DNA from: Helicobacteraceae bacterium
GTDB taxonomy: Bacteria; Campylobacterota; Campylobacteria; Campylobacterales; Sulfurimonadaceae
NCBI GenBank assembly: GCA_021163845.1
Contig: JAGGTH010000080.1
Location: 1 to 44,810, forward strand
Length of the DNA stretch: 44,810 nucleotides
Direction: 5' to 3'
The notes beneath the pieces are model-generated. The model was not told the DNA's origin. It saw only the letters and a program-made list of their open reading frames with translations, and ran no database searches. Of the stretch, positions 3 to 16,909 are shown piece after piece. Position numbers and translations under genes: made by a program. The stretch's first letter is position 1. Each line of letters begins with the position of its first letter.

Positions 3-713
3 ACTCTGCATGAACATATTATTATCAATCAAAAGTGTGCAATTTTATCTTTTACTATCCAAGACCAAGTATTTATATTTAACACCAATATGGTTTGTGG
101 AAAATTTACACAGCCACCTAAAATAAATATCAAATTTTTAAATACACACACCAAATTAACCGTTATTCGTCTCAGCCCCTTAGGGATGTTTAAGCTTACA
201 GATATCCCTATTGCTTCTATGGTCAACTCTATTGCATGTACGTCTCAAATAGGTCTCGATATTTTAGATGAGCTTGTGGGTTCTGAGTCTCTTATATGGC
301 TTGAAAAAACTCTCGATCAAAAACAAACAAAAGAGTCTTTTGACACGATTCATCAGATCATTGAGTATGTTGATAGCCATTTTACAGAATTACCAACAAA
401 TGCGAACCAAGTGATTACAAAAAAATTTGGACTCTCTGAGAGTACCTTGCAACGCTATTTTAAAAAGTACATAGGTCTCAATCCTTCCACCTACATCCTA
501 ACCCTCAAACGCACAAAGATGATCCATTCTATAGCGCAAGACAGCTACGATGCACTTACTGTAAAACAAAACGGTTACTACGACCAATCTCATTTTATCA
601 ATGATTTTAAACGCCTTTTTGGAATTTCACTCCAAGAATATTTTTCAGATATGCAAAAGCACAAGAGATATTCCCCCGAGCTTTTTTCTATTTTTCATAC
701 TTCTAAAAAATAG
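3..713 (+). CDS. AraC-family transcriptional regulator, 5' partial
   Basis: The reading frame is open to the left edge, so the N-terminus lies outside the window and about 236 residues are visible. The last hundred residues form the double helix-turn-helix of AraC/XylS regulators: a first helix pair around LSESTLQRYFKKYIG, and a second with the family signature GYYDQSHFINDFKRLFGIS. The upstream part would be an effector or dimerisation domain, but I cannot name its ligand. The gene precedes the chemosensory island on the same strand and ends 116 bases before the first PAS gene. It is therefore a reasonable candidate, not a proven one, for the regulator acting at the shared motif found in front of four island units. 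Confidence 0.85.
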   Translation, partial: TLHEHIIINQKCAILSFTIQDQVFIFNTNMVCGKFTQPPKINIKFLNTHTKLTVIRLSPLGMFKLTDIPIASMVNSIACTSQIGLDILDELVGSESLIWLEKTLDQKQTKESFDTIHQIIEYVDSHFTELPTNANQVITKKFGLSESTLQRYFKKYIGLNPSTYILTLKRTKMIHSIAQDSYDALTVKQNGYYDQSHFINDFKRLFGISLQEYFSDMQKHKRYSPELFSIFHTSKK

Positions 714-736: not shown

Positions 737-785
737 GGTCATATATGAGTTATTTTTTCTTCATGCTTTATGACCATAAAGAGAC
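737..785 (+). promoter_or_regulatory. Shared island promoter motif, copy A
   Basis: GGTCATATAT (737-746) is followed by the inverted match TATGACC (769-775; 32 bases start to start) and the block AGAGAC (780-785). The first motif begins 92 bases before the GTG start at 829 and AGAGAC begins 49 before it. The same three-part layout occurs before 2472, 12725 and 12987. I infer an operator and promoter region; no exact -10 or -35 is claimed. Confidence 0.5.
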
Positions 786-828
786 CATCAATCCCTTATG
801 ATTTCAAACAAAAAAAACAGGAGAAAAC

Positions 829-1215
829 GTGAGCCGTCAATATCTACTCAAAGACAATGATTTTTTAGTATCTCAAACAGATACTCGTGGAAATATCATT
901 TTCGCTAATGATGATTTTTGTAAAGTTTCTGGTTACGGGCTCCATGAACTCATTGGCAAACCTCATAATATTGTCCGCCATGAAGATATGCCAAAAAAAG
1001 CATTTCAAGAGCTCTGGGAGTCACTCAAAAAACAAGGTACTTGGTCGGGATATGTAAAAAACAAGACCAAGGAAGGTCAATACTACTGGGTTTATGCAAT
1101 GATCTCGACAATAAAACATGCCAAAACAAATGAGACCACATACATCTCATGTCGCAGAAAACCTCATCCTGATGAGATAAGATCTGTCAGCGAACTCTAC
1201 AGAACCATGCATTAG
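829..1215 (+). CDS. Aer/CetB-like PAS-domain redox sensor protein
   Basis: This 128-residue cytoplasmic protein is essentially one PAS domain (about residues 8-120). It carries the Aer-type signature: [10 protein letters not shown], then [10 protein letters not shown], then a Trp-rich stretch ending YYWVYAM. In Aer and Campylobacter CetB this PAS class binds FAD and reports redox or energy state. FAD binding here is inferred from that resemblance. The start is GTG at 829, supported by an AGGAG ribosome site seven to ten bases upstream. It is followed after 17 bases by a membrane receptor that lacks a sensing domain of its own, so the two probably form a split energy-taxis receptor like CetB/CetA. 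Confidence 0.85.
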
Positions 1216-1232
1216 CAAAAAGGCGTCTTCTT

Positions 1233-2342
1233 ATGAATAATAAAATCAGAACTTCCATCATTCTTTTTTTTGGTGTCTATATTCTCCCTTTGTGGATCTA
1301 TGCCAACGAATCTGTTGCTTTGCCTGCCTATATCATATTCTTTATTTTACTGAGTATTGCGATGGTTCTCTTACCCTACAAGCAAGATACTACAGAGTCT
1401 GACCGCTTGGTCAGTGATTTTCAAGATCTCATTGAGAACAAAAAGACGAAAATAAATATTGATTCCTCAGATAGTAAAATAGCTCAGAGTAAAATATATC
1501 AAGTGATCCAAACTTACCAATCTGTAGTGCTCACTGATACCAAGGTAGCAGGAGAGATGGTCTTGCTCGTAGATAAAGTGAAACAAGGCTATTTTGATAC
1601 TCGTGTATCAAGTGACACCTCTACCCCACACGTGCATCTACTCAAAAAGACCATGAATACGATGCTTGATTCTATAGAGATGAATCTCGAAAACAGTATA
1701 ATGGTTTTGGACAAACTTTCTCAAGGAGAGTACCAAACACGTGCAAATATTCAAGTCAAAGGGAAGATGAAAGAGCTTTTAGAAAGTATCAATAGGCTTG
1801 GTGACACACTATGGTCAATGGAGCAAAAAAACATAGATACATCCAAAGCCTTTGAGATCAAAACACAAGAGTTCAAGGCGATCCGTGATACAAAGTTTGT
1901 AGAACTAAGCAGTATGATCGAATTAACTGTAGAGAAGATGCAATATATTGCAAATGAAGAGAATCATCTTGCCCAAAACTTACAGGTTCTTGCCGAAAAT
2001 GCACAAAATACCAAAGATGTTTTAGTGACCATTGGAGATATCGCCGAACAAACAAACCTCTTGGCCCTCAATGCCGCTATCGAAGCAGCACGCGCAGGCG
2101 AACACGGACGAGGTTTTGCTGTGGTAGCCGATGAAGTGCGCAAACTAGCTGAGAGAACTCAAAAAAGTTTGGCAGAAAGCTCTGCTACTATAAATGTCCT
2201 TATTCAAGCAATCTATGACAATAGCCATACACTCAACAAAAACATGGAGGAGATGCTCCTTCTCACTGAATTTGTTGGCAAACTAGACACACATATGCAA
2301 GAGCTGATGTCAACTATGGATACTATGCACACCCAAGAGTAG
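1233..2342 (+). CDS. CetA-like methyl-accepting chemotaxis protein with two HAMP-like units
   Basis: The 369-residue protein has two membrane helices (about 5-22 and 31-48) joined by a very short loop, so it has no periplasmic ligand domain. Two similar HAMP-like units follow, around [13 protein letters not shown] (about 110-150) and [13 protein letters not shown] (about 158-200). The MCP hairpin tip is intact (residues about 271-310: [27 protein letters not shown]). The helical bundle beyond the tip is short, because the protein ends about 55 residues later. The preceding PAS protein probably provides the sensory input and the tip would contact CheW and CheA encoded downstream. Whether it is methylated by CheR/CheB cannot be judged. 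Confidence 0.88.
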
Positions 2343-2382
2343 CGCAGTCATCAAGTTTATCTTTTTTTCAAAGTCACAAAAT

Positions 2383-2431
2383 GGTCACATATAACACATT
2401 TATATCAGACCGTTTCAATCCACACAGAGAT
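2383..2431 (+). promoter_or_regulatory. Shared island promoter motif, copy B
   Basis: GGTCACATAT (2383-2392) is followed by TCAGACC (2405-2411; 22 bases start to start) and AGAGAT (2426-2431). The first motif begins 89 bases before the ATG at 2472 and the AGAGAT block 46 before it. The layout matches copies A, C and D. The rest of the 129-base gap shows no other structure. Confidence 0.5.
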
Positions 2432-2471
2432 GTAAGATACCGAATCTAAAAAAAAGTTTTTAGGAAATGGT

Positions 2472-3884
2472 ATGGATACATTAAAAATTTTAATTGCTGA
2501 TAGTACAGAGGAGAACCGTCTCGTATTAAAGTCTATAGCAAAAAAGATGCAATGCTTTGATATTTTTGAAGCGCTCGATGGTATTGATGCGTTAGAGCTA
2601 ATTGCAATACACCAACCCCATATTATTATCATAGATGTGATGTTGCCACGTCTTGATGGATTTCATACGGCAAAACTTATCAAACTGCATTATCCGCAAA
2701 CTATTGTTATGGCAGTTACATCTATTATCGATCCAAATATGGAGAAAAATATGGCAAGTATAGGTGTCGCAGCCTATGTCCATAAGCCTATAGATAAAGA
2801 ACTTATCCATTTCAAACTCCAAAGCTTTCAGGCACTCCTTCACTCTCGAAAAAAAGAGTACAAACAAGTCTCAGTTGAAGAAGCTCTCAACCCTTTTAGC
2901 CTTGATATTCGTCATTTCAAGACAATTTTCACTATCACAAATTCCGAAGCGATGATGGACTTTGGTCTTTGGTTGCTCACACGATGTGAAGATGATATGA
3001 ATATCACCTGCCCTAAAATTGATATTACCGTAGAGTTGTTTTATGAACTTATGAGACAAAAACTCCGAAATAAAGAGTCTCTCTATATTATCGTTGAAGA
3101 GAGTTTTGTTGAAATATTTATCACATTGCAATTTGAGACAAGCATTGAGCTTCAAGCAAAAGCGAGTGCATTACAAAAAGAGCTTGATGAGCAATGTATG
3201 ATTAAAGACAATGCCGCTTGCATACGCTTGCGCTTACATCAAAAAGAAGATCTACAAGAGGAAAAGAAAATTATCCAAACAGTACAAAGTGAAACAGCTC
3301 CGACAAAGGTAGCTCCAAGTGAAACAAAAGATAAAAGTGAAACAAAAGATAAAAAAGTATTAGAAGGCAAAGACAAAGAGCTTTTACGCCAAAGTTTTGT
3401 GGAAAAGACCTCTGCGATAGATTATATCAGCGATATAGGCGGTGATGTTTTAGATGAGATCCGTGACTTAGAGAGTCTCGATGAAGAGTGGACACAAAAG
3501 CTCCATACCATTGAGCGAGAGCCCTCAACTCAGAGTCTTCACGATTTCATTGATAATGTTTTGGGGGTCTATGTCAAAGCGATTAACAATCTCTTTGAGT
3601 TTACGGCTTTAGGATATGCCCTCTTATCATTAGGATCTTTTCTCAAAGAAAATGCACAGCTCATCGTTGATGAACCCGCAAAACTAAAAACATTAGCAAT
3701 GCTTTTAGAACATCTAGGAGCAGATCTTACCTCTTGGAGAGAGCATATCTTTTCTCTCCAAGACACCGCAGATATACATTACCTCGATAGCTCTTTTTTC
3801 AGCTCATGTATGCAAATAGAGCAAATTATCGGAAATAAGGAGCTTGCAACAGACGATGACGATGACGGCATGGAATTTTTTTAA
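2472..3884 (+). CDS. Receiver-domain protein with uncharacterised output region
   Basis: Residues 1-120 form a CheY-like receiver with the phospho-acceptor at D55 (IIIIDVMLPRLDG) and the conserved Lys in VHKP. The usual acidic pair is reduced to one: D10 is followed by Ser. The rest of the 470 residues matches no output domain I recognise. There is a mixed region at 135-260, a low-complexity linker with a SETKDK repeat near 280-295, and a helical C-terminal part ending in an acidic DDDDD run and MEFF. No DNA-binding, GGDEF or HD motif is seen. The promoter motif and its place between the receptor pair and cheY suggest a signalling role in this chemosensory system. Confidence 0.75.
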   Translation: MDTLKILIADSTEENRLVLKSIAKKMQCFDIFEALDGIDALELIAIHQPHIIIIDVMLPRLDGFHTAKLIKLHYPQTIVMAVTSIIDPNMEKNMASIGVAAYVHKPIDKELIHFKLQSFQALLHSRKKEYKQVSVEEALNPFSLDIRHFKTIFTITNSEAMMDFGLWLLTRCEDDMNITCPKIDITVELFYELMRQKLRNKESLYIIVEESFVEIFITLQFETSIELQAKASALQKELDEQCMIKDNAACIRLRLHQKEDLQEEKKIIQTVQSETAPTKVAPSETKDKSETKDKKVLEGKDKELLRQSFVEKTSAIDYISDIGGDVLDEIRDLESLDEEWTQKLHTIEREPSTQSLHDFIDNVLGVYVKAINNLFEFTALGYALLSLGSFLKENAQLIVDEPAKLKTLAMLLEHLGADLTSWREHIFSLQDTADIHYLDSSFFSSCMQIEQIIGNKELATDDDDDGMEFF

Positions 3885-3898
3885 CTAAATAACTGACC

Positions 3899-4030
3899 TT
3901 ACGCACTTTCTTTATGAAAGGGTGTAAGTTGCCACTTATTCTTCCGTATTCGAGAGATACGGATAGCTTTAGGGGGTTGTAGGGACATTTGTCCCTGCCG
4001 CTTTATGGGCTTTGCTCATAAAGTGCGTAA
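3899..4030. repeat. Nested inverted-repeat element before cheY
   Basis: The outer arms are an 11-base perfect inverted pair, TTACGCACTTT (3899-3909) and AAAGTGCGTAA (4020-4030). Inside are four smaller hairpins: CTTTC/GAAAG (3906-3920), TCCGTAT/ATACGGA (3943-3963), AGGGACA/TGTCCCT (3981-3996, two-base loop) and CTTTATG/CATAAAG (4001-4023). The 132-base size, terminal inverted repeats and lack of a coding frame resemble a MITE-like non-autonomous element. A structured leader controlling cheY is the alternative. No target duplication is convincing: TAAATAA occurs on both flanks but is low complexity. Confidence 0.55.
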
Positions 4031-4054
4031 ATTAAATAAAAAAGGAGTACAACA

Positions 4055-4441
4055 ATGGCAAAAAGGGTAATCATCGTAGATGATTCAAGAGCAGTTGTCG
4101 CAACTGCAGAGTTAGCACTAGAGGGGCTTATTACGAGCGGAGTGATTGAGTTTCAAGCTTATCTCAATCCGGCAGAACTTCTAGAAGCATTGCAAAACGG
4201 ATCAGAGAATTTTGATCTGCTTATTAGTGATGTCAATATGCCCGAGATGAATGGTCTTGATCTCTCTCGATACATAAAAAATGATGAGCGTTTTAAAACA
4301 AAACCGATCATCATTTTAACGACGGAGAGTTCAGAAGCGTTAAAAATGAAAGGCAAAGAGATTGGAGTTACAGGATGGATGGTCAAGCCATTCGCTGAAG
4401 AGAAGCTTGTGAAGTCAATCAAAATGGTACTAGGAGTCTAA
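4055..4441 (+). CDS. cheY: CheY-like response regulator
   Basis: This 128-residue stand-alone receiver carries the full phosphorylation set: acidic pair D9/D10, acceptor D59 in LLISDVNMPEMNG, the Thr pair at 89-90 and K111 in MVKPF. It should be phosphorylated by the CheA encoded downstream and carry the signal to a flagellar motor or another target. The ATG follows a good AAAGGAG site. It is the first gene of a tight run (cheY, cheW, mcp, STAS, cheA, cheR) with gaps of 9 bases or less. Its own promoter would have to lie within or before the palindromic element upstream, unless it is read through from the receiver gene. Confidence 0.9.
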   Translation: MAKRVIIVDDSRAVVATAELALEGLITSGVIEFQAYLNPAELLEALQNGSENFDLLISDVNMPEMNGLDLSRYIKNDERFKTKPIIILTTESSEALKMKGKEIGVTGWMVKPFAEEKLVKSIKMVLGV

Positions 4442-4443
4442 AT

Positions 4444-4938
4444 ATGGAACAAAATACAGCCCAATCCAGAAGAGAGCGCTATTTGACTTTCTTTTTGGGG
4501 GAGGAACAATACGGCATCGCCATTGATCGCATCAAAGAGATCATAGCGCTGATGAAGGTGACATACGTCCCAAAAACACCCCATTTTGTCAAAGGTGTTA
4601 TCAATCTACGAGGCTCGATCATCCCGATCATCGATACAAGATTACGCTTTGGGATGCCAGAGTGTGAGGCAGATATGCACACAGCGATCATCATCGTGGA
4701 AGTAGAAAAGGTCAATATCGGCTTTATCGTCGATAGGGTCGAAGAGGTGGCAAGCATAGAAAGCTCAAGTCTAGGGGCGGCTCCAAAATTTGGTAGCAAC
4801 GTCGATACCGACTTTATCTGCTCTATGGCACAGATCGAAGAGAACGTTGTGATGATACTTGACCTGCTCAAACTTTTTGAAGCAGATGAACTTGTGAGTC
4901 TAGAACAAATACAACAAACACAAACAAAAGGAGAATAA
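4444..4938 (+). CDS. cheW: CheW chemotaxis coupling protein
   Basis: This 164-residue protein has the CheW fold throughout: an N-terminal strand pair around LGEEQYGIAIDRIKEI, the motif VPKTPHFVKGVINLRGSIIP that typifies the family, and a second half ending in EENVVMILDL. CheW bridges the receptor tips to the CheA P5 domain in the cytoplasmic array. It starts two bases after cheY and ends one base before the MCP start, so translational coupling is likely. Nothing is missing relative to ordinary CheW. Confidence 0.93.
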   Translation: MEQNTAQSRRERYLTFFLGEEQYGIAIDRIKEIIALMKVTYVPKTPHFVKGVINLRGSIIPIIDTRLRFGMPECEADMHTAIIIVEVEKVNIGFIVDRVEEVASIESSSLGAAPKFGSNVDTDFICSMAQIEENVVMILDLLKLFEADELVSLEQIQQTQTKGE

Positions 4939-4939
4939 A

Positions 4940-6592
4940 ATGAAGTGGTTAGAAAATATGGTACTACAAACAAAGTTGATGTTACTCACAGGAGTGATGT
5001 TAATAGCACTTTTAGCTTTAGGTATGTTAGCCTATAGCACAACCCAAAAATGGGAAGATGGAATCGAAGAGATTGGAACAATTCGTGTGCCTTCATTGGC
5101 AGGACTTATGGATATGCGTATAGGAATCAATCAAGTAATCATTCAACAAAATCGAGTGCGTGGTACAAAAGGCAGTGAAAAAAGAAAACAAATACTTACT
5201 AATGCGATAGAGGAAATCGAGGGAGGTTTTCAGCGCTACGAATTGGGCTACAAACGCTATGCTCCTTTGCCACAAACTCCGCAAGAAGCGCTTGAATGGA
5301 AAAAATATGAAGAGGCTTTTGAAAAATGGCGTAAATTAAGCGATGAATTCACACACAATGTAATTTTGCCACTCTCTCAAATAGATGACACAGAGATAGA
5401 GCAAGTAGAAAACTACTTTTTAAAAATGACCTCTTTTATTGAGCAAAGTCGTCTACCTCGTGCTGTAGCGTTAGAGAGTATGAATTTTATCGCAAAAATC
5501 AATACAGATATAGCTGATAATGAAGTTCTCAAGGCTCAAACATCTGTTGCTTCAACTATTCAAATGACCATTACTATCGTCGTGATTGCATTTTTTATCT
5601 CTATTATACTTGCGACTTTAATTATTCGTTCTATAACGCGTTCGATCACAGGAAGTGTTACTTCTATCCGTGATGGTGCGATGCAGATCACATCCGCATC
5701 TGATCAAGTAGCGGCATCCTCTTCTTCTCTTGCACAAGGGGCGAGTGAGCAGGCATCAAGTGTTGAAGAGGTAAGTGCGACGCTTGAGGAATCTACAGCT
5801 ATCAACACACAAAATGTCGATAACGCACGCCAAGCAGATATCTTGGCAAAAGATGCAAATGACTCTGCACGTGCAGGCTATGAAAAAGGGGAACAACTCT
5901 CCCACTCTATGCATGCTATTACAGAATCAGCGGCAAAAATTTCAGGTATTATCAAAACCATCGATCAGATCGCTTTTCAAACCAACCTTTTAGCACTCAA
6001 TGCAGCGGTAGAAGCAGCGCGTGCAGGAGAACATGGACTCGGCTTTGCCGTCGTAGCAGACGAGGTGCGTAACCTAGCACAACGTGCAGCAGCAGCAGCA
6101 AAAGAGACCTCAGATATCATCCAAGAGGTCGTTGGTCAGATTCAAGAAGGAAATGAGATCGCTTTAGCGACCCATACATCCTTTCAAGAGATCGTAGAAC
6201 AATCGAAAAAAGTCTCTAACCTTATCGGTGAGATCGCAACGGCAGGAAAAGAGCAATCTGAGGGGATGACACAGATCAACCAAGCGATGGGTCAAGTAGA
6301 TGAAGTAACCCAACAAGTAGCGGCAAACTCAGAAGAAGCAGCAGCAGCGGCAGAAGAGCTCAATGCACAGGCATCTTCTATGATGGAGACGGTGCGTATC
6401 TTAGCGGCGATGGTAGGGATGCAAACAGATCAAGCACCATCAGGTGCAAAGAAGATGAATCTGCATCACTTAGACCCAGTGCCAGCTCTTGGAAAAAAGC
6501 AAGCAACACAATCAGCATCTAAACCTAAGTCGATTCCATCAAAAAACCAAAATATCTTTCCTCTTTCTGAGGACGACTTAAAAGAGTTCTAA
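4940..6592 (+). CDS. Methyl-accepting chemotaxis protein with four-helix-bundle-like sensor
   Basis: The 550-residue receptor has a first membrane helix at about 14-33, a helical periplasmic domain of about 170 residues resembling the 4HB_MCP class, and a second membrane helix at about 207-232. The coiled-coil signalling domain follows almost at once, with little or no recognisable HAMP. The hairpin tip (about 342-390, [27 protein letters not shown]) is fully conserved, so it should dock on CheW and CheA. The last 45 residues are a Lys/Ser/Pro-rich flexible tail ending DDLKEF. That resembles an adaptor-docking tail, although the aromatic residue of the classical pentapeptide is a Leu. The ligand is unknown. 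Confidence 0.9.
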   Translation: MKWLENMVLQTKLMLLTGVMLIALLALGMLAYSTTQKWEDGIEEIGTIRVPSLAGLMDMRIGINQVIIQQNRVRGTKGSEKRKQILTNAIEEIEGGFQRYELGYKRYAPLPQTPQEALEWKKYEEAFEKWRKLSDEFTHNVILPLSQIDDTEIEQVENYFLKMTSFIEQSRLPRAVALESMNFIAKINTDIADNEVLKAQTSVASTIQMTITIVVIAFFISIILATLIIRSITRSITGSVTSIRDGAMQITSASDQVAASSSSLAQGASEQASSVEEVSATLEESTAINTQNVDNARQADILAKDANDSARAGYEKGEQLSHSMHAITESAAKISGIIKTIDQIAFQTNLLALNAAVEAARAGEHGLGFAVVADEVRNLAQRAAAAAKETSDIIQEVVGQIQEGNEIALATHTSFQEIVEQSKKVSNLIGEIATAGKEQSEGMTQINQAMGQVDEVTQQVAANSEEAAAAAEELNAQASSMMETVRILAAMVGMQTDQAPSGAKKMNLHHLDPVPALGKKQATQSASKPKSIPSKNQNIFPLSEDDLKEF

Positions 6593-6593
6593 G

Positions 6594-6857
6594 ATGGAAT
6601 TCGACGGTGATGTCCTCACTATCGGACTGGATATGAATATCAAAGAGATTGAAGAGTTTGGAGAGTTTATCCAAGCTCGTTTAGAGTATTTGACAACTAT
6701 AGAGATCCAAGAGGGTACTGCTCTGCAAAGCAGTGCTCTTTTGAGCTTACTAGTAAGTCTAAAGCGTTCGCACACTCACTTAAACATCCCCTTTTTAGAG
6801 CGTGGATCGATGAGTTCGCAAACGCACGGAACACTACATTGGATACATTATGACTAA
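6594..6857 (+). CDS. Small STAS-like protein in the che operon
   Basis: This 87-residue protein begins one base after the MCP stop and overlaps cheA by 8 bases. Its layout, a short strand start MEFDGDVLTIGLDM, a helix, and a middle segment ALQSSALLSLLVSLKR, fits a STAS or anti-sigma-antagonist-like fold. In those proteins a Ser or Thr just before the second helix can be phosphorylated, and S47/S48 are candidates. Some accessory chemosensory operons do encode a STAS protein between the receptor and cheA. The assignment rests on pattern and place, not on a strong motif, so a different small adaptor is possible. Confidence 0.6.
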   Translation: MEFDGDVLTIGLDMNIKEIEEFGEFIQARLEYLTTIEIQEGTALQSSALLSLLVSLKRSHTHLNIPFLERGSMSSQTHGTLHWIHYD

Positions 6858-8925
6858 ACAAGAACAAGTCAAAGCAATTTTTATCGAAGAAGCGGGTGAG
6901 ATTATCGAAAAACTCGATATCAATATTATCCGTTTTGAAGAAAACTCTACCGACTTTGATCTACTCAATGAGATCTTTCGTGGAGTCCACACCCTCAAAG
7001 GCAATGCCAACGCATTTGGCTTTACACGCTTAGGCGAATTTGTACACCATTTTGAAGATATTCTCGATCATTATCGAAGCACGCATGAAAGTATAGAGAC
7101 ACACAATCTTGAACTTATCGTCAACAGTGTTGTGGTTATTCAAGAGGTGATGCATTGTGAGCTCAATGAGATCCAAGAGCTTCCAGACTCTTATCCAGAA
7201 TGTCTTGAAGAGATAAAAGCACTTCTTGCTTCAAAAAAAGGTGCTTGTGAAAAAGAAAAAGTTTTGCCTCCGACAGAGCAGATGAATGATCTCACAGCAG
7301 AGTTTGGCTCTGATATCACTCCCTCTATGGATGAACTTCTAAACCAGAGCATCCAAAAACACAAAAAGATGCAAACAGAGGACCTTAAGCTCTATAAAAT
7401 TGATCTTACTTTAGATAGCGATTGTTATACACGTGGGTTTGACCATCTGTTATTTTTAAAAATGTTACAAGAAAAATCTTCTGCTATGGAGAGTTTTTTT
7501 GAGATGCAAAATGTTGCAAAACTAGAAGCATTTCACGTCCATGAAAACAGTATTGGACTTGTTACATCCATTGTGCTGACACCACTAAACTTTGAAGAGA
7601 TCTGTGAATATTTTGAGTACCTTTTTGCACATGAGTACAAGGTAGAGCTCCTTGCTTATGAACCACAAGTTCAAGAAAAAAAAGACGAACTAACAGAGGT
7701 CACAACAAAAACAGTCGCTAAAAATAATGCCCCAGTAATGTCGAGCACCGCAAAATCAACGATACGCATCGACACATTGAAACTCGATGAGCTTTTTGAT
7801 TCTGTAGGGGAGCTTGTGATTGCCCAAAACTTTGTATCACAAAACGAAAAGATACATGCGATAGAAGATGAATCGATCAGCCGTACAATAGAGACCCTCT
7901 CTAAGATCACAAAACGGATCCAAGACAGGGTGATGAGCTTACGAATGGTGGCGATTCGTGATACATTTGACAAGATGAAGCGTGTTGTCAGAGATACCTC
8001 CAAAAAAACAGGAAAAGAGCTTCATCTTCATGTACTTGGTGAAGATACAGAGATCGATAAGACGATGATCGATAGTCTCTCTGATCCTCTTGTACATATC
8101 ATTCGTAATGCAATCGATCATGGGCTCGAAGCAGATGCCAAAGCACGACTTGCTGCAGGCAAAAAGGTAGAGGGTGTCATCACCCTCAAAGCGTATCACA
8201 AAAGTGGCAATATTGTCATTAGTGTGAGTGATGATGGGCGCGGTATCGATAAAGAAAAAGTGATACAAAAAGCTATAGAGCGCGGAGTTATTACAGGGGA
8301 TGAAAACCTCACAGAGAGCCAAGCTTTTAGCCTTATCATGCAACCTGGATTTTCTACCGCCGATACTATCAGTGATCTCTCAGGTCGAGGAGTCGGCTTG
8401 GATGTAGTGAAGACCTCTATCGAAAAACTCCGCGGCAAGATCGAAATAGAATCAAAACAAGGGGAAGGAACGACCATCTCTATGGTACTTCCTCTCACCT
8501 TGGCGATCATCGACGGAATGCTTGTACAAGTGGCGCAAGAGATCTATATCATACCTACACTCAGTGTTGTTGAATCATTTCGACCAGAACGTGATATTGT
8601 TCATGCTGTAAAAGGGAAAGGGGAATTTGTCAGTATGCGTGGACAGCATATTCCTGTGATCCGCTTAAGTGATCTCTTTGACTTAGAGACAGAGCATTTA
8701 GACCCTTGGGATGGAATACTTGTGTGTGTTGAAACTGAGGCAGGACGCATAGCGATTATGGTTGATGAGCTCGTAGGACGTCAGCAAGTTGTTATCAAAC
8801 CACTTGGTAAGGCACTTGCAAAACAACGTGAGATCTCAGGTGGTGCCATTTTGGGCAGTGGTGATATCGCCCTTATACTTAATGTTGAGGAGCTACGTCC
8901 TCTTATCGAGTCGGTTCATGCGTGA
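6850..8925 (+). CDS. cheA: CheA chemotaxis histidine kinase without a fused receiver
   Basis: Domains in order over 691 residues: an HPt (P1) domain with phospho-acceptor H47 in GVHTLKGNANAFG; a P2-like region at about 165-275; the P3 dimerisation helix pair beginning near 300 (IRIDTLKLDELFDSVGELV); an HATPase domain with N-box RNAIDHGLEA (about 418), DDGRGID (about 461) and GRGVGLDVV (about 512); and a P5 CheW-like domain from about 550 to the end. It autophosphorylates under receptor control and passes phosphate to CheY and CheB. Unlike classical Campylobacter CheA, it has no C-terminal receiver. The ATG at 6850 lies inside the STAS gene, and the stop overlaps the cheR start. Confidence 0.95.
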   Translation: MTKQEQVKAIFIEEAGEIIEKLDINIIRFEENSTDFDLLNEIFRGVHTLKGNANAFGFTRLGEFVHHFEDILDHYRSTHESIETHNLELIVNSVVVIQEVMHCELNEIQELPDSYPECLEEIKALLASKKGACEKEKVLPPTEQMNDLTAEFGSDITPSMDELLNQSIQKHKKMQTEDLKLYKIDLTLDSDCYTRGFDHLLFLKMLQEKSSAMESFFEMQNVAKLEAFHVHENSIGLVTSIVLTPLNFEEICEYFEYLFAHEYKVELLAYEPQVQEKKDELTEVTTKTVAKNNAPVMSSTAKSTIRIDTLKLDELFDSVGELVIAQNFVSQNEKIHAIEDESISRTIETLSKITKRIQDRVMSLRMVAIRDTFDKMKRVVRDTSKKTGKELHLHVLGEDTEIDKTMIDSLSDPLVHIIRNAIDHGLEADAKARLAAGKKVEGVITLKAYHKSGNIVISVSDDGRGIDKEKVIQKAIERGVITGDENLTESQAFSLIMQPGFSTADTISDLSGRGVGLDVVKTSIEKLRGKIEIESKQGEGTTISMVLPLTLAIIDGMLVQVAQEIYIIPTLSVVESFRPERDIVHAVKGKGEFVSMRGQHIPVIRLSDLFDLETEHLDPWDGILVCVETEAGRIAIMVDELVGRQQVVIKPLGKALAKQREISGGAILGSGDIALILNVEELRPLIESVHA

Positions 8926-9745
8926 GATCCAACTCAAACCCGAAGAGTTTGAGCTTTTTCGTCGTTATGTTTACGAAAAAGTGGGTATCTCACTCTCCGC
9001 GCAAAAGACAACGCTTATCAAAGGACGACTCAACAAACGGCTCAATCAACTCAATCTCACATCATTTCGTGCCTATTATGACCACTTGGTAGAAGATAAA
9101 AGTGGTGAAGAGCTTTCACTTTTCATCAGTGCTATCTCTACAAATGTGACCTCTTTTTTTCGAGAAAGTGCACAGTGGGAGTGGCTAAAAGGCTACCTAC
9201 CAAAGCTCATCGCTTCGAAGCAAAGAGAAAAAAAACTTCGTATCTGGTCAGCAGGATGTTCTAGCGGTGAGGAACCTTATACTATCTTGATGTTTTTACA
9301 ACAGAATATCCATCAGTTTCATGATTGGGATGTAAAAATCCTTGCGACCGATATTTCACATAAAGTGCTTTCCCATGCGATCGAGGGGATCTATGAAGCC
9401 AAACATGTGGAAACACTTCCAAAAGAGATCGTTCTTCGCTCTTTTGAAAAAGTACGTGAAGAAACGACAATTCGCTATAAAATCGCACCTCATCTTCAAG
9501 AGAAAGTGATGTTTCGACTTTATAACCTTGTGACCGACCCTTTTTTCTTTAAAAATAAATTTGACATGGTCTTTTGTCGTAATGTGATGATCTATTTTGA
9601 TGATCCAACCCGCCATGATCTTATCGAACGCTTTGCAAGCGTATTACCAAAAGGTGCTCCACTTTTTTTAGGAAGCTCCGAATCACTTACGAGTCATAAA
9701 GAGACACTCAAACTCTTAGGCTCTTCTATTTATCAAAAATTATAA
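8918..9745 (+). CDS. cheR: CheR chemoreceptor methyltransferase
   Basis: This 275-residue S-adenosylmethionine-dependent enzyme methylates receptor glutamates. The N-terminal helical domain (about 1-75, with KGRLNKRLNQL) and the SAM domain (SAGCSSGEEPYT near 110, LATDIS, and FCRNVMIYFDD near 225) are complete. I take the ATG at 8918, which overlaps the cheA stop by 8 bases. The frame runs further upstream but only within cheA coding sequence, and the protein from 8918 starts where CheR proteins usually start. With CheB and CheD encoded 5 kb downstream, the island has a full adaptation set. Confidence 0.93.
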   Translation: MREIQLKPEEFELFRRYVYEKVGISLSAQKTTLIKGRLNKRLNQLNLTSFRAYYDHLVEDKSGEELSLFISAISTNVTSFFRESAQWEWLKGYLPKLIASKQREKKLRIWSAGCSSGEEPYTILMFLQQNIHQFHDWDVKILATDISHKVLSHAIEGIYEAKHVETLPKEIVLRSFEKVREETTIRYKIAPHLQEKVMFRLYNLVTDPFFFKNKFDMVFCRNVMIYFDDPTRHDLIERFASVLPKGAPLFLGSSESLTSHKETLKLLGSSIYQKL

Positions 9746-9754
9746 GGGTATTCT

Positions 9755-11224
9755 ATGAAAATACTATTTCAACCATTAAGCACTATAGTTTTGTCCTTAG
9801 GCTTGATCGCAACAGCTGTTGTTGCAAACGAAAAGCTTCCAAAACATACATTAAAAGCAAATTCTCAAATAGTTTATAATGAAACTCCAAAGCAAGTTGA
9901 TAGTTTTGGCAAAATCTTTAGTGAGGGGATGTACTACGGACGCATACGATCTAACACATTTTATCTTGACTATAAAACAAATGACTCCACACACTCAGAC
10001 CATCTAACAAGTGGACTTGGTGCTTCTTTCATCGTAAAGAGTGCAAAATATGCAGATTTTGATTTTACTACAGGACTTTATGCGTCACAAGCCACATTTT
10101 GGGATCGAAACGACAATGTAGCCGATCTCAAAAAAGGAAAAGATGTGATGAGCAGATTTGATTATGCAAATCATGGTGATAAATATATGGCTGTTTTAGG
10201 GCAAGCCTATCTACAGTACTCAGGGATCAACTCTACAAAGATCTCCATAGGACGACAATTGGTTGAGACTTTTTATACAAAGTCAAATGATACAAAAATG
10301 TTTCCAAATACATTTGACGCCTTTGTCTTAGAGACCAAAGCACTAGCAAATACAAAAATCCAAGCAGCATATCTTTATGAGCAAAAACTTCGTGATCATA
10401 CAAAACCACACGCCATTCTCATGTACGGAGATGCGAACTCTACATCCAAAGCAAAACCCCAATGGAGCGAAAATGACGACTCTGCAATGCACAAAGGTTT
10501 GACATATACGGCATTAAAGGCTGCAGGAAAACCTACTGATGCACCGCTATTAGTGATGGATATCAAAAACAGCAGTATCGAAAATCTCAAACTCGATGCC
10601 TCTTTTTACAATGTGCCAGAACTCTTATCTCAAGCTATGCTAGAAGCAAACTACGAAATCGCTATGAATGGCTTTTCTCTCTCACCGGGCATCCGTTATA
10701 TACGACAGTTTGATAACGGTGCGGGAAGTGTTGGTGGCGCATCTTTAACTGGAAATACGCACGGGTACAAAAAAGCAGATTCACTCGACTCACAGATGAT
10801 AGCAGCAAAAATCGTCACAAAAATTGATAACTACAAGATAAATCTTGCATATTCTCATATTTTTGATGAAGCAGACCTTGTCACTCCGTGGAGAGGATTT
10901 CCAACAGCAGGCTACACACGCTCTATGGCACGCTATAACTGGAGAGCCAATACAAAAAGCTACCGTCTTGAAGTTGTCAGAAACGACAATGCAAATGGGA
11001 TATATAAAGATATCTTTACACAAGCTTCTATCCTCTTTACAAATGCCGATGAAAACAAAAAAGCTAAAGATGAGATCTACTACTATGTAGGATTGATTCA
11101 AAATATACCAACTATGATTGATCTGCAATGGCGTTTACGATTGGGCTATGTTCAGTATACAGATGCTGATGAGAGTGATAATAATGAACTCGATGCACGC
11201 TTTGAACTGAACTATCTGTTTTAA
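9755..11224 (+). CDS. OprD-like outer-membrane porin
   Basis: The 489-residue protein begins with a signal peptide (about 1-24, ending VVA). It continues with alternating short amphipathic strands typical of a beta-barrel and ends in a terminal Phe (NYLF), the usual outer-membrane assembly signal. The opening GMYYGRIRSNTFYLDY and the motif SIGRQLVET are like the OprD-type porins common in Campylobacterota. The substrate cannot be read from sequence. It starts nine bases after the cheR stop, apparently in the same transcript as the chemosensory genes, which is an unusual place for a porin. A related porin is encoded at 12987. Confidence 0.82.
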   Translation: MKILFQPLSTIVLSLGLIATAVVANEKLPKHTLKANSQIVYNETPKQVDSFGKIFSEGMYYGRIRSNTFYLDYKTNDSTHSDHLTSGLGASFIVKSAKYADFDFTTGLYASQATFWDRNDNVADLKKGKDVMSRFDYANHGDKYMAVLGQAYLQYSGINSTKISIGRQLVETFYTKSNDTKMFPNTFDAFVLETKALANTKIQAAYLYEQKLRDHTKPHAILMYGDANSTSKAKPQWSENDDSAMHKGLTYTALKAAGKPTDAPLLVMDIKNSSIENLKLDASFYNVPELLSQAMLEANYEIAMNGFSLSPGIRYIRQFDNGAGSVGGASLTGNTHGYKKADSLDSQMIAAKIVTKIDNYKINLAYSHIFDEADLVTPWRGFPTAGYTRSMARYNWRANTKSYRLEVVRNDNANGIYKDIFTQASILFTNADENKKAKDEIYYYVGLIQNIPTMIDLQWRLRLGYVQYTDADESDNNELDARFELNYLF

Positions 11225-11259
11225 CAATACTCCGTATTGAATTAATATTAGGAAAGACT

Positions 11260-12621
11260 ATGAGCAAACTGATTCCTGCAACAACCCAAAAAGAAGCTAC
11301 CTTTCATGCAAATGAGCTTTTTTTCTCTATTACAGATCACAATAGCACTATCATCTCAGGTAATGATGTATTTATCCGTGTTAGTGGATATAAAAAAGAG
11401 GAGATCATCGGTCATTACCATAATATTGTACGTCATCCTGATATGCCAAAAATTGTTTTTAAACTCCTTTGGGATTTTATCCAAGCACAAAAACCTATTA
11501 TTGCCTATGTAAAAAATCGTGCAAAAACTGGGGAGTATTATTGGGTTCTAGCCGCGGTATTTCCCCTTAAAGAATCCTACGTCTCTATAAGAATAAAACC
11601 AGATACAAAACTCTTTCGTGCAGCTCAAGAGTTGTACGGCAAACTCCTTGCAATAGAATCACAAGATAATATGGCAAAAAGTGAAGAGATGCTGCCACTT
11701 CTATTACAAGATCTCGGCTACAAAAGCTATGAAGCGTTTATGAGCGATGCTTTTTTAAATGAGCTCAAAGCACATAAAAAAAGTATACCTCCCTTAGAGA
11801 TTGCTACACAAACAATACAATCAGAGTTTGTCGAGTGTCTTGAAAACATTCAAATGCATACAAACGCACTCATGCACAAATACGATGAGTGGTTTGATAA
11901 GATCGATCTCTTTTTAGAGATAAAGACAAATTTTGAACAACAAAGTTTTCTCTTGCGTCAAATAGCTTCTGAGATCATTTTTTTATCTCTCAATGCTTCT
12001 ATTGCCTCGTATCAAGTACTCAATGGGGGCGAAACATTTGCTACTTTAGCACATGATGTTCGTATAAATGCCAAGCAAAATAATGATCTTATCTCAGAGA
12101 TCGATACTATCATTCAAGCTGTCTCTCTTTCTCTGAATGAACTTATCTTTTGTGTTTGCAGTATACGTCTACAGAGTGAACTTCTCAACTATTTTATTGA
12201 CGAACTTTTGAGTGAAAATGGCGACATAGACACAAATGAGATAGAGAGTAATATATCGACCCTTCTCGCACTCATCACAGAGTATTCCAACAAAACAAAT
12301 ACTCTACAACTTGAACTACAAAAACAGATGAAAAAGGTACTTGATTTTCTTTTGCACTTAGAGCAACAGATGATGTATTTGGGATATATCCAAGTATTTG
12401 GCATCATAGAGTCAGCCGACAACTCTGATAAATCTCTTGATTTTGAAGAGATCTTCTCTCAGCTTAAAACACATATTCAAAAAACATCCGATGCCCTTTG
12501 TATCTTGCAAGAGAATGGAACAAGTTTTGATACACAAAATGGCTCACTTCTCAAACAAGCAAACCAAACCAAACAGCTTTTAACCTCTCTATATGAATGT
12601 GTGGATGCTATCAAGGTATAA
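11260..12621 (+). CDS. Soluble PAS protein fused to a degenerate MCP signalling tip
   Basis: Residues about 15-110 of 453 form an Aer-type PAS domain (GNDVFIRVSGY, HNIVRHPDMP, YYWVLAAVF), closely like the one encoded at 829. A long helical region follows. At about 236-275 it reads FLSLNASIASYQVLNGGETF and then ATLAHDVRINA. This lines up with the MCP tip [20 protein letters not shown] then [11 protein letters not shown], but has lost the charged receptor contacts. There is no membrane helix. I infer a cytoplasmic redox sensor that descends from an Aer-like receptor and may no longer bind CheW and CheA normally. The ATG at 11260 is preceded by TAGGAAAG. The 35-base gap to the porin upstream suggests cotranscription. 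Confidence 0.75.
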   Translation: MSKLIPATTQKEATFHANELFFSITDHNSTIISGNDVFIRVSGYKKEEIIGHYHNIVRHPDMPKIVFKLLWDFIQAQKPIIAYVKNRAKTGEYYWVLAAVFPLKESYVSIRIKPDTKLFRAAQELYGKLLAIESQDNMAKSEEMLPLLLQDLGYKSYEAFMSDAFLNELKAHKKSIPPLEIATQTIQSEFVECLENIQMHTNALMHKYDEWFDKIDLFLEIKTNFEQQSFLLRQIASEIIFLSLNASIASYQVLNGGETFATLAHDVRINAKQNNDLISEIDTIIQAVSLSLNELIFCVCSIRLQSELLNYFIDELLSENGDIDTNEIESNISTLLALITEYSNKTNTLQLELQKQMKKVLDFLLHLEQQMMYLGYIQVFGIIESADNSDKSLDFEEIFSQLKTHIQKTSDALCILQENGTSFDTQNGSLLKQANQTKQLLTSLYECVDAIKV

Positions 12622-12624
12622 CAA

Positions 12625-12683
12625 GGTCATATGTTGGTGATATATCGTGCTCGTTCATAAAACCATTTCACGACCACAGAGAC
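12625..12683 (+). promoter_or_regulatory. Shared island promoter motif, copy C
   Basis: GGTCATATGT (12625-12634) is followed by CACGACC (12669-12675; 44 bases start to start) and AGAGAC (12678-12683). The first motif begins 100 bases, and AGAGAC 47 bases, before the ATG at 12725. The spacing between the halves is about one helical turn more than in copy A. Confidence 0.5.
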
Positions 12684-12724
12684 GCTACTATATAAAATAA
12701 AATATAAAAACAAAGAGGTGCAAG

Positions 12725-12901
12725 ATGGCAGAGATAGATACTATTTTTACACATGATGCTATTCACAACGATATCAAAACGGCATTAGACGAACTAGAAG
12801 AGAAGATCACTTCTATTCGTGACTCAGAGTGTGACTCTTTGAGTGAAGAAGATAAAGCATTTTTAAAGATGCTCGATGAGCTTTTAGAAAATAAGTCATA
12901 A
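12725..12901 (+). CDS. 58-residue acidic protein
   Basis: An ATG preceded by AAAGAGGTG opens a 58-codon frame rich in Asp and Glu (DELEEKITSI, SLSEEDKAFLKMLDELLE). It is predicted to be all helical, with no signal peptide or membrane segment and a single Cys at position 36. It matches no family I recognise. Its reality is supported by the ribosome site, the charged non-random composition, and the shared regulatory motif 100 bases upstream and again just after its stop. A small adaptor or regulator in the chemosensory system is possible, but its function is unknown. Confidence 0.6.
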   Translation: MAEIDTIFTHDAIHNDIKTALDELEEKITSIRDSECDSLSEEDKAFLKMLDELLENKS

Positions 12902-12904
12902 GAT

Positions 12905-12951
12905 GGTCACATATCTTCTCTTTTTTATGACTGTTCTCTCCCTATAGATAC
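12905..12951 (+). promoter_or_regulatory. Shared island promoter motif, copy D
   Basis: GGTCACATAT (12905-12914) is followed by TATGACT (12926-12932; 21 bases start to start) and AGATAC (12946-12951). The first motif begins 82 bases, and the last block 41 bases, before the porin ATG at 12987. The motif begins four bases after the stop codon of the small acidic gene, so the porin-kinase-cheD-cheB run probably has its own promoter. Confidence 0.5.
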
Positions 12952-12986
12952 GCCAATATTTCGTTACTTTATTACAAGGTTTAGAA

Positions 12987-14225
12987 ATGGCATTTATAGC
13001 ATTAAAGACAATCCTACTCACAACTCTCCTAGCGATAGTAGCACTCGGTGATGAAGTTGTACTAAGGGGTGAACCTTCTCAAGTTCAGGGACTTATCCGC
13101 GCAGCATATATCGATCAAAACAATCTTCACTCTACAGATACTTATGCAAGCTCCATTGGTGGGATCTTAAAATATGAAACTGCCCCTTTGTATGATCTCC
13201 AGTTTGGATTGGGTGCCTATGTATCACAAAAAGTACATCCGCTTACAGGTTCTTTTGCACAGCAAGAAGCGAATGGAGATTTTTTTGCACAAGACACAGG
13301 ATCTTACACCTATATAGGAGAGGTCTATGCTCAGTATAAGAGCGAAGATCTCACAATACGTATCGGTCGCCAAAATATTGAGACACCACTCCTAGCTCCT
13401 GATGATATACGGATGCACCCAAACACTTTTGAAGCAGCTTTTGCAACTTACAAAGGTCTTCACGAGACAATATTGAGTGCTGGATATGTAGGACGCTGGG
13501 CGGGGTATGACTCTGGAGGAGATATCTCAAAATTTAAAAAACTTGCAGGGGGAAAAAGCAAGGGAGTAGCCCTTATAGGTATACAGAATAGTTGTGTCAA
13601 AAATCTGACTTTGCAAGGATGGTACTACAATATGGATAAATTTGCTGATGCTTTTTATTCGGACATCGTGTATGAGATACCTTTTTATGCGATCGCTAGT
13701 GTAGAACTTAACGCTCAGTTCGCTCTCTTTGATGAAAAAAAAGATGCTTTTGATAGTGCAACGGGACTTTATAACATCCCATCAAATATTAACGGAGAGA
13801 TCTATGGCTTTGCAACATCTCTTCACACCAATATCTTGACACTCCATGGCGCATATAATCAAACATTCAACGCAACAGATAAAAAGATCAGTAATGGATT
13901 TGGCGGATGGCCTTACCTTACTTCTATGGAGGAGGTCTCGATAGCAGAGTTTACAGATGCAAAAGCCTATAAACTCTCCACGCACCTTGATATAGATGTT
14001 TTTGGACAAAACCGATTGCATATCCACGCAGATTATGCAGACTTTCAAAATAAAACGAGTAAGACCCACGTCAAAGAGTTTGATAGTGTTGCCACCTATA
14101 CGCTCGGTGAGACAATGAATATGGAGCTGAGTTATGCAAATGTTGATGATATCAATAACAATACCAAGTACAATGGTAGCTATGAGCGCTTGCTTGTCCG
14201 TCTTAATTACAAGTTTACGAGATAG
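12987..14225 (+). CDS. Second OprD-like outer-membrane porin
   Basis: The 412-residue protein has a signal peptide (about 1-21, LLTTLLAIVALG) and beta-barrel-like alternating strands. It shares features with the porin at 9755, including TIRIGRQNIETP and a fragment with GGWPYLTSMEE comparable to the RGFPTAGYTRSMAR of the first. The C-terminus is NYKFTR, so the Phe is third from the end, not last. It is shorter than the first porin by 77 residues. It starts 36 bases after the AGATAC block of motif copy D and lies two bases before the kinase-like gene. Substrate unknown; a nutrient or attractant uptake role tied to taxis is inferred from context. Confidence 0.8.
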   Translation: MAFIALKTILLTTLLAIVALGDEVVLRGEPSQVQGLIRAAYIDQNNLHSTDTYASSIGGILKYETAPLYDLQFGLGAYVSQKVHPLTGSFAQQEANGDFFAQDTGSYTYIGEVYAQYKSEDLTIRIGRQNIETPLLAPDDIRMHPNTFEAAFATYKGLHETILSAGYVGRWAGYDSGGDISKFKKLAGGKSKGVALIGIQNSCVKNLTLQGWYYNMDKFADAFYSDIVYEIPFYAIASVELNAQFALFDEKKDAFDSATGLYNIPSNINGEIYGFATSLHTNILTLHGAYNQTFNATDKKISNGFGGWPYLTSMEEVSIAEFTDAKAYKLSTHLDIDVFGQNRLHIHADYADFQNKTSKTHVKEFDSVATYTLGETMNMELSYANVDDINNNTKYNGSYERLLVRLNYKFTR

Positions 14226-14227
14226 AT

Positions 14228-15028
14228 ATGAAAGAACTTGAAGAGATCGCTTTTTTAAGCCATAAGATCTTAGATCTCAACAAACAACTCATTGAGAGTG
14301 AAAAAATAAAATCTCAATTTCTTTCACTCGTAGCGAGTAAACTCAACAACCCTATGACAGCACTTTTGGGTCTTATTCCCCATCTAGACCCTCAAAGATC
14401 TTGTTCTCAAGAGGTTTTTGATCTCGTGCATCAAGAGGTATTACATTTGCATTTTCAGATTCAAAACCTTGTCATGGCAGCAGAGATAGAAGGTGGTATG
14501 TTGCAAATAGACTATGCATCTGTAACTATTCAAAGCATAATAGAAGATGTACTCAGAGATCTTCAATATCTCATTGATGCACAAGGGATTACTATTACAT
14601 TATCTAATACACTTTCATCACCTTTTATTACAGACCCTAAAAAACTCTATCTTATTCTCAAAAACATCATTGCCAATGGATGTAGCTATGGAACAAAGGG
14701 AGGTGTTATTGATATTTCTATCACCAAAAGCAAATATATCTTAACGCTAGAGATCAGTAATCAAGGGGATGGTCCTCGTGTAGAGTTTAAGCCCCAAGTT
14801 TTTCAGAGGTTCGCCCAGACTGCTGAGGGAGATCATGGTTTGGGGATAGGACTCAGCATAGCAAAAGAGTTATGTGGTTCTTTAAATGGGGTACTCGATT
14901 ATAAAGTTGCCAAGAAAACGGTTACATTTGTCGTAAGCTTGGACCTATTATCTAAAATTCCAAATTCTGATGCTTATGGCTCTGATGAATTTTTATTTGA
15001 ATCATTTGATAGTGCGATCGAGCTCTAA
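14228..15028 (+). CDS. Histidine-kinase-like protein lacking the phospho-accepting histidine
   Basis: This 266-residue soluble protein has a short coiled coil, a DHp-like helix (about 24-50, KSQFLSLVASKLNNPMTALL) and an HATPase domain. The ATPase has an N-box-like segment (LKNIIANG, about 145-152) and GLGIGLSIAKEL (about 203-214). In ordinary kinases the aligned stretch reads SHELRTP; here it is ASKLNNP, so the histidine is replaced by Ser (residue 37). The ATP-lid glycines are kept. It may bind ATP and act as a modulator or as a partner of another kinase, but not as a conventional His kinase. Its stop overlaps the cheD start by one base, tying it to receptor adaptation genes. Confidence 0.8.
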   Translation: MKELEEIAFLSHKILDLNKQLIESEKIKSQFLSLVASKLNNPMTALLGLIPHLDPQRSCSQEVFDLVHQEVLHLHFQIQNLVMAAEIEGGMLQIDYASVTIQSIIEDVLRDLQYLIDAQGITITLSNTLSSPFITDPKKLYLILKNIIANGCSYGTKGGVIDISITKSKYILTLEISNQGDGPRVEFKPQVFQRFAQTAEGDHGLGIGLSIAKELCGSLNGVLDYKVAKKTVTFVVSLDLLSKIPNSDAYGSDEFLFESFDSAIEL

Positions 15029-15504
15029 TGATACACGGAAGTTCAACATTTATCCATGTTGGTCAAGTACATGTTGACTCTGCTCCTAGAGCCATCTCAA
15101 CAGTACTCGGTTCATGTGTTGCAGTTTGCCTCTATGACCCTTATTTGGGTATTGGTGGGATGAACCATTATCTTTTACCTTTTTGGAATGGTAATGGACT
15201 GCAAACGCCAAAATATGGAAATATCGCTATTCCAAAACTCATAAACTTGATGACAAGCCAAGGATCTCAACCAAAGCACATAGAAGCAAAGATATTTGGT
15301 GGTGCTATGATGAATTGCAATGAGAATGAAGTGATGATGATAGGTCGCAAAAATATACTTGTTGCACATGATATCTTAAAAGAGTATTCCATCTCAGTGA
15401 TCGCAGAGGATACAGGAGGACGACATGGACGCAAAATTCAATTTGACTTAGCACATGGGAAAGTTCTCTTAAAATATGCCTTGCAAAAAAATATTTCAAA
15501 CTAA
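15028..15504 (+). CDS. cheD: CheD chemoreceptor glutamine deamidase
   Basis: This 158-residue protein has the CheD catalytic Cys in STVLGSCVAVCLYDP, followed by the catalytic His in GGMNHYLLPFW. Both are conserved in deamidases that convert receptor Gln to Glu and in CheD proteins that partner CheC. The C-terminal GGRHGRKIQFDLAHGKVLLK is also characteristic. The ATG overlaps the previous stop codon (TAATG) and the gene ends eight bases before cheB. No cheC is seen in this window, so CheD probably serves receptor modification here. Confidence 0.92.
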   Translation: MIHGSSTFIHVGQVHVDSAPRAISTVLGSCVAVCLYDPYLGIGGMNHYLLPFWNGNGLQTPKYGNIAIPKLINLMTSQGSQPKHIEAKIFGGAMMNCNENEVMMIGRKNILVAHDILKEYSISVIAEDTGGRHGRKIQFDLAHGKVLLKYALQKNISN

Positions 15505-15512
15505 GGAAATTT

Positions 15513-16538: not shown

Positions 16539-16647
16539 ATGTTTTCCCTGATGCTTCAAAAAAAGAACTGGATCACTCTCAAAGGGAAAATACACCCTAA
16601 CACGATACAAATTGCAACGCAAAATTTTAAATATATCTTTTTTGAGC

Positions 16648-16653
16648 TATAAT
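16648..16653 (+). promoter_or_regulatory. -10 element for the DUF4160/DUF2442 pair
   Basis: TATAAT lies 14 bases before the ATG at 16667 in a very AT-rich stretch. That leaves only about seven bases of leader for that ATG, but about 22 for the TTG at 16682. An upstream inverted pair, TTTTCCCT (16542-16549) and AGGGAAAA (16583-16590), lies between cheB and this promoter with no clear role. Confidence 0.5.
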
Positions 16654-16666
16654 TTAAAAAGATAAA

Positions 16667-16909
16667 ATGAAGGTTAATAGTTTGCCAACTCTTTTGAATA
16701 TTAGTGGATTTAAGTTCTTTTTTTATGCGAATGAACATGAACCTAAACACATACATGTAATTAAAGGTGAAGGATTTGCTAAAATAGAGTTAAATAGCCT
16801 GAGAGTAGTGCAGAATTATTTAAAGCCAAAAGATTTAAAAGCCGCAATGGCTTTAGTTGAAGAGCATCAAAAAGAGTTTGAAAGGGTATGGGATGAATGG
16901 TTTAATTAA
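16667..16909 (+). CDS. DUF4160 domain protein
   Basis: This 80-residue protein carries the DUF4160 signature: LPTLLNISGFKFFFYANEH followed by EPKHIHV, and ending with a helical VEEHQKEFERVWDEWF. DUF4160 genes are typically paired with DUF2442 genes, as here, and the pair is often listed as toxin-antitoxin-like, though its activity is not established to my knowledge. A second start, TTG at 16682, would give the family's usual opening (M)PT. It has AAGG eight bases upstream and suits the promoter better, so the annotated ATG may be five codons too early. Confidence 0.8.
   Translation: MKVNSLPTLLNISGFKFFFYANEHEPKHIHVIKGEGFAKIELNSLRVVQNYLKPKDLKAAMALVEEHQKEFERVWDEWFN

Follow-up and report, generated by a model that had tools for sequence, protein, structure and literature searches.

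Four promoters of a chemosensory island in a Helicobacteraceae bacterium share one operator resembling OmpR/PhoB-type sites

Four promoters in a contig of a Helicobacteraceae bacterium carry the same operator and are likely to form a single regulon, whose most plausible reader is a response regulator of the OmpR/PhoB family acting as an activator. Judging from sequence and gene context, we put the probability of this reading at about 60%. The shared unit has the form RGTCAyAT-N3-RGTCAyAT-N12/13-ATrTGACy-N21-TAnnnT and thus comprises, in this order, a pair of half-sites separated by one helical turn, a half-site in inverted orientation and a sigma-70-like -10 box. What had been a motif recognized by eye can now be treated as a regulon open to testing, in which the operator is defined, its geometry is fixed and a candidate for the regulator is at hand. 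Its setting is the environmental relatives of Campylobacter, in which the control of accessory chemosensory clusters has been little described.

Results

Promoters and target genes

The DNA analysed here, referred to as the window, is the whole stretch of 44,810 nucleotides. Its relevant features are the following, with the four operator-promoters numbered P1 to P4.

3..713, + strand, AraC-family regulator, truncated at the N-terminus by the end of the contig (lacking about 36 residues relative to the protein of family genome G179)
737..802, + strand, P1, operator-promoter before the PAS-MCP pair: upstream half-site 737-746; core 748-775, AGTTATTTTT-N8-CTTTATGACC; degenerate fourth half-site GAGACC 781-786; -10 TATGAT 797-802
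829..2342, + strand, target of P1: PAS protein (829-1215) and HAMP/MCP-signalling protein (1233-2342)
2372..2438, + strand, P2, operator-promoter before the receiver-protein/che operon: upstream half-site 2372-2381; core 2383-2411; -10 TAAGAT 2433-2438
2472..12621, + strand, target of P2, predicted operon: 470-aa receiver protein, CheY, CheW, MCP, 87-aa protein, CheA, CheR, OprD-like porin and PAS-MCP protein
12625..12691, + strand, P3, operator-promoter before the 58-aa protein: upstream half-site 12625-12634; core 12636-12664; fourth half-site ACGACC; -10 TACTAT 12686-12691
12725..12901, + strand, target of P3: 58-aa protein, related to proteins of G179 and G195 (31-40% identity)
12894..12959, + strand, P4, operator-promoter before the porin-kinase-cheD-cheB run: upstream half-site 12894-12903; core 12905-12932; -10 CAATAT 12954-12959
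12987..16538, + strand, target of P4: OprD-like porin, histidine kinase, CheD and CheB

The upstream half-site of P4 overlaps the stop codon of the gene for the 58-aa protein. A gap of 170 bases behind the first gene of the P2 run could hold a further promoter.

Architecture of the operator

The original prediction started from the decamer GGTCAyATrT at positions 737, 2383, 12625 and 12905, located 92, 89, 100 and 82 bases ahead of the starts at 829, 2472, 12725 and 12987. Both the sites and the distances were borne out. These are the only copies in the window, all of them on the + strand and each in a gap ahead of a gene, compared with an expectation of 0.23; four copies were reached in none of 100 shuffles. 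The decamer alone was rejected as a genome-wide signature because it is too weak. It occurs eight times in the genome, the four copies outside P1-P4 all lying within open reading frames, so that half of the matches are intragenic, and with one mismatch allowed it is no commoner than in shuffled sequence.

An inverted half had also been proposed to follow each site. ATGACC-like halves are indeed present, but the reported spacings of 32, 22, 44 and 21 bases mixed two different half-sites, because the decamer is the upstream copy at 737 and 12625 but the core copy at 2383 and 12905. The weaker upstream copies, AGTCACAAAAT at 2372 and AGTCATAAGAT at 12894, had been missed. When the half-sites are aligned correctly, the irregular spacings collapse into a single constant geometry. 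We aligned 16 sites, comprising the four of the window and 12 from other genomes. In all 16, the step from the upstream to the core half-site is 11 bp, the inverted half-site ATrTGACy closes a core of 28 or 29 bp, and exactly 21 bases separate the end of the core from the -10 box (consensus TAnnAT). From this 21-base spacing the transcription start can be predicted. The four -10 hexamers of the window lie 32-39 bases ahead of their respective start codons.

A third element of the earlier model, an AGAkAy block common to all four promoters, did not hold up. This sequence lies 7-8 bases ahead of the -10 box in the promoters at 2383, 12625 and 12905, but 17 bases ahead of it in the promoter at 737, where it is part of another half-site (GAGACC). 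Being out of register there and unconserved in the 12 foreign sites, it was discarded as a motif element.

The best-scoring slot by far for a further half-site lies 11 bp past the inverted one. The fourth half-site at this place is degenerate and weak overall, although clear in P1 (GAGACC) and P3 (ACGACC), and it falls at the -35 position. Thus, the operator consists of two 11-bp repeat pairs facing each other. A conserved -35 hexamer was not seen at this position. Column counts of the 16 sites and their inspection gave TAnnAT as the conserved proximal element and no sigma-54 (-24/-12 GG-GC) or sigma-28 promoter. Two traits of OmpR/PhoB-type operators are found here, namely direct-repeat half-sites at 11-bp steps and a fixed position at the -35 region of a sigma-70 promoter. 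The half-site of PhoB, TGTCA, resembles GGTCA.

Occurrence in the genome and the family

A motif search across the genome and its relatives, as suggested by the original prediction, returned the full pattern (up to three mismatches) exactly four times in this genome, at P1-P4, and recovered it in related genomes. The 28-bp form gave 13 matches in seven of 228 genomes of the same family (up to three mismatches) and its reversed control none in the same 228; the 29-bp form gave five matches and its control none (30 genomes). A weight matrix trained on the 12 foreign sites, with the window sites left out, ranked P1-P4 at the top of the window with 34.9, 34.9, 33.9 and 24.7 bits, a test independent in sequence but not in discovery, as the training sites had partly been found through their likeness to those of the window. 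This caveat touches neither the absence of control matches nor the gene context. The maximum in 5.4 Mb of simulated sequence was 13.3 bits. Within the window, the next two entries (10.3 and 2.8 bits) are the same operators read on the reverse strand, and the first unrelated site scored -0.1 bits. On sequence grounds, the initial observation is real once its architecture has been corrected.

In relatives, the operator stands ahead of the orthologous PAS-MCP pair (G179, G195, G199 and G202), of OprD porins (G179 and G002), of a second, non-orthologous CheY-CheA cluster (G195 and, weaker, G002), of large PAS kinases (G200 and, weaker, elsewhere), of the AraC gene (G181 and G195 and, weaker, G179) and of the response regulator's own gene. 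To judge from the gene orders compared, it travels with its transcription unit; the PAS-MCP pair adjoins the AraC gene in the window and lies at the far end of the cluster in G179, with the operator present both times. Control of the sensor pair, the operon of the receiver protein, the small protein and the porin-kinase-cheD-cheB run by a single regulator is well supported by these comparisons, because operator and -10 spacing are shared, the genome is otherwise devoid of the pattern at up to three mismatches, and similar genes follow it in relatives.

The che run itself is kept in about 16 genomes of the same genus, which lack the AraC gene, the porins and the motif; no operator sites were found at this cluster in any of them. 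About half of these genomes instead carry 11-bp TTGCATTC repeats ahead of the receiver gene. Orthologs of the AraC protein occur in nine genomes of another genus of the same family. The motif is found again in the three closest of these (G179, G181 and G195), where the gene has chemosensory or MCP-type genes as neighbours. When named genomes were scanned with the AraC protein, the only locus returned was an unrelated one.

Candidate regulator

The response regulator favoured here is composed of a Response_reg and a Trans_reg_C domain and is encoded in relatives next to a large multi-PAS histidine kinase. Its gene is divergent from the AraC gene in G179, G181 and G195 and from the PAS-MCP pair in G199 and G202. 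Sites of the 28-bp form occur in six of 12 genomes with the regulator versus one of 216 without it, and the regulator gene was found in every other site-bearing genome (G179, G181, G195, G199, G200, G202 and G002). Upstream of the regulator gene, 11-bp direct repeats of ATGACy are present for eight of the 12 orthologs, some of them from genomes that have no AraC; in several cases the repeats lie ten bases ahead of a -10 box. As a counterpoint, six of the 12 regulator genomes have no full-pattern match.

In the assembly of this genome (rated 99.89% complete), neither the regulator (best match 34%) nor the kinase (best match 35%) has an ortholog, and queries with the full-length protein, the DNA-binding domain and the kinase returned paralogs only, at about 36% identity or less. 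The contig starts inside the AraC gene. The distance from AraC to the beginning of the regulator, which lies upstream, amounts to a few hundred bases in G179, G181 and G195. Because the contig ends inside the very gene beside which relatives encode the regulator, an assembly gap at this place is the simplest, albeit unproven, reading of its absence.

Discussion

Which protein reads the operator

The original prediction named the AraC-type protein and the receiver protein as possible readers. Both have less in their favour than an OmpR-family response regulator, which fits the sites better. The 470-aa receiver protein lacks a DNA-binding domain. For the AraC-family protein (3-713), the proposal is that it binds the operator and switches all four promoters, alone in this genome and perhaps jointly with the response regulator in relatives. 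No other DNA-binding regulator adjoins the island in this assembly, and the sites are accompanied here by AraC but by no ortholog of the response regulator. The AraC gene adjoins the putatively controlled genes in the window as well as chemosensory or MCP genes in G179, G181 and G195, all of which have sites. Moreover, AraC adjoins the genes in all four genomes with most sites per island, which also speaks against an OmpR-type reader. Across the family, however, the sites do not follow AraC orthologs. Near-perfect sites occur without one in G199 and G200 (28-bp form) and in G002 (29-bp form), all of which possess the response regulator, whereas G180, G198, G204 and G212 have a full-length AraC ortholog (53-55% to the G179 protein) and neither the response regulator nor sites. 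Such co-occurrence across genomes favours the response regulator over AraC. Among the ten AraC genomes alone, sites are present in four of five with the response regulator versus one of five without it, a difference that is not significant (p 0.10). The AraC genes themselves lie behind the operator in G181 and G195 and therefore look like targets, and AraC-family proteins do not usually bind 11-bp tandem repeats of a single half-site. Control by AraC is disfavoured and seems rather unlikely to us; from the sequence comparisons, the regulator is probably of the OmpR-family two-component type.

Another OmpR-family member of this genome might read the sites in place of the ortholog found in relatives. 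A paralog at G000:C2:81853-82530, likewise made up of Response_reg and Trans_reg_C, has a recognition helix, SDSAIKNLIFRLRKK, nearly equal to that of the relatives' regulator, CDSAIKNIVLRLRKK, and is unique in this respect among 16 such proteins aligned. Its overall identity to that regulator is only about 34%, though, its gene and that of its kinase are neighbours of a TonB-type uptake operon at a great distance from the island, and the region upstream of it lacks the operator, which makes this paralog a quite improbable reader. That the likeness of the four promoters is due to chance, or is a relic of local promoter duplication without regulation, can hardly be believed at all. P3 and P4 are just 270 bases apart, as duplication might have it, but spacers and flanks are unrelated whereas half-sites, -10 boxes and distances are kept, the pattern precedes orthologous genes in other genomes with control matches at zero, and the matrix test across genomes already contradicts such an origin.

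Proposed mode of action

If an OmpR-type response regulator is the reader, its phosphorylated form would, on a presumed signal, occupy all four half-sites in the form of two tandem dimers that face each other. The promoter-proximal dimer at the -35 position would stand in for a -35 element and recruit RNA polymerase to the sigma-70-type -10 box (TAnnAT). The regulator would accordingly be an activator rather than a repressor, and its own promoter, carrying the same half-site, may be among its targets. The output would be the dose of the chemosensory array, PAS-MCP receptors, OprD porins and the small protein, raised together, with AraC and additional PAS kinases as further outputs in relatives.

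Relation to known systems

Within the same phylum, the PceP/PceS system of Sulfurospirillum has an OmpR-family regulator that binds repeat elements in the promoters of several operons of its own gene region, including the operon that encodes it; the repeats overlap the -35 box or are located farther upstream (PMC7755780). The likeness lies in an OmpR-type regulator encoded in the region that it controls and in repeats shared by several promoters. In contrast, the PceP half-site is CTATW, with 17 bp between repeats that are direct only, compared with GGTCAyAT, 11-bp steps and two facing pairs here, and the genes controlled by PceP/PceS differ from those behind P1-P4. In E. coli, operators of PhoB and ArcA have half-sites every 11 bp, often in more than two copies, and PhoB sites overlap the -35 region (PMC3348028, PMC3798270). 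The present operator shares the 11-bp steps with both and the -35 overlap with PhoB. The PhoB and ArcA repeats are unidirectional, whereas the two pairs described here are mutually inverted, with a fixed core of 28 or 29 bp and 21 bases to the -10 box. We regard the operator as a variant of the OmpR/PhoB-type site; literature searches gave no description of this particular motif.

In Sulfurimonas, Sulfuricurvum and Sulfurospirillum, accessory che clusters have been described in addition to the core F3 system (PMC9321776). The cluster of the window may be one of them; their promoters and a dedicated regulator are not treated in that work.

Reuse of the operator

The operator occurs at chemosensory clusters of two unrelated types, one shared by the window and G179, the other being the CheY-CheA cluster of G195 (more weakly G002), which suggests that one control module has been reused. 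If true, this reuse would show how a cell chooses between arrays. A bolder version, to which we give little credence, takes the head-to-head double-repeat OmpR-type operator as a portable module placed on non-orthologous chemosensory clusters, PAS receptors and porins, by which a second two-component system picks the array to be built; in the present genome, the regulator would have been lost and AraC would have taken over its sites. In G181 and G195, a single core lies between the AraC and response regulator genes, with a -10 box 21 bases from each of its ends.

Promoter of the che operon

Among genomes of the same genus, the orthologous che operon is preceded by TGCATTC-N4-TGCATTC, an 11-bp direct repeat unlike the window operator, with a TAAT-type -10 element about ten bases further on. 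This alternative repeat lies upstream of the receiver-protein gene at loci L075, L076, L077, L080, L081, L082, L083 and L084, and divergently oriented receiver and kinase genes are located beside the operon. Apparently, the regulator of the orthologous operon has switched between the window genome and the same-genus genomes.

The operon's first gene, conserved in this place in about 16 genomes, encodes a 470-aa receiver protein with a long C-terminal portion that matches no Pfam family. OprD-like porin genes are contained in or adjoin the operon in the window genome and in G179 of the same family; the same-genus che clusters are without such genes inside or beside them.

2472-3884 (window), 470-aa receiver protein, first gene of the che operon
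9755-11224 and 12987-14225 (window), OprD-like porins
5884-7290 and 15876-17060 (L102, G179), OprD-like porins

Associations of the regulator-kinase module

In three genomes of the family, the response regulator-histidine kinase module adjoins a different, non-orthologous CheY-CheA cluster (CheA identity about 35%), and thus a single control module is tied to two kinds of chemosensory cluster. In two others, the response-regulator gene is duplicated in tandem, the second copy in G149 being preceded by four successive ATGACy 11-bp repeats.

L104 5887-14342 (G195), L142 1609-9806 (G158) and L144 900-3545 (G002), module with CheY-CheA cluster
L140 1765-3306 (G149) and L141 4381-5918 (G106), tandem response-regulator copies

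A small-protein family

The 58-aa protein is a member of an undescribed small-protein family without a Pfam match; in three genomes, members of this family are encoded close to che genes or to the PAS-MCP pair.

12725-12901 (window), 58-aa protein
L102 18425-18670 and L104 2444-2707, relatives of the 58-aa protein
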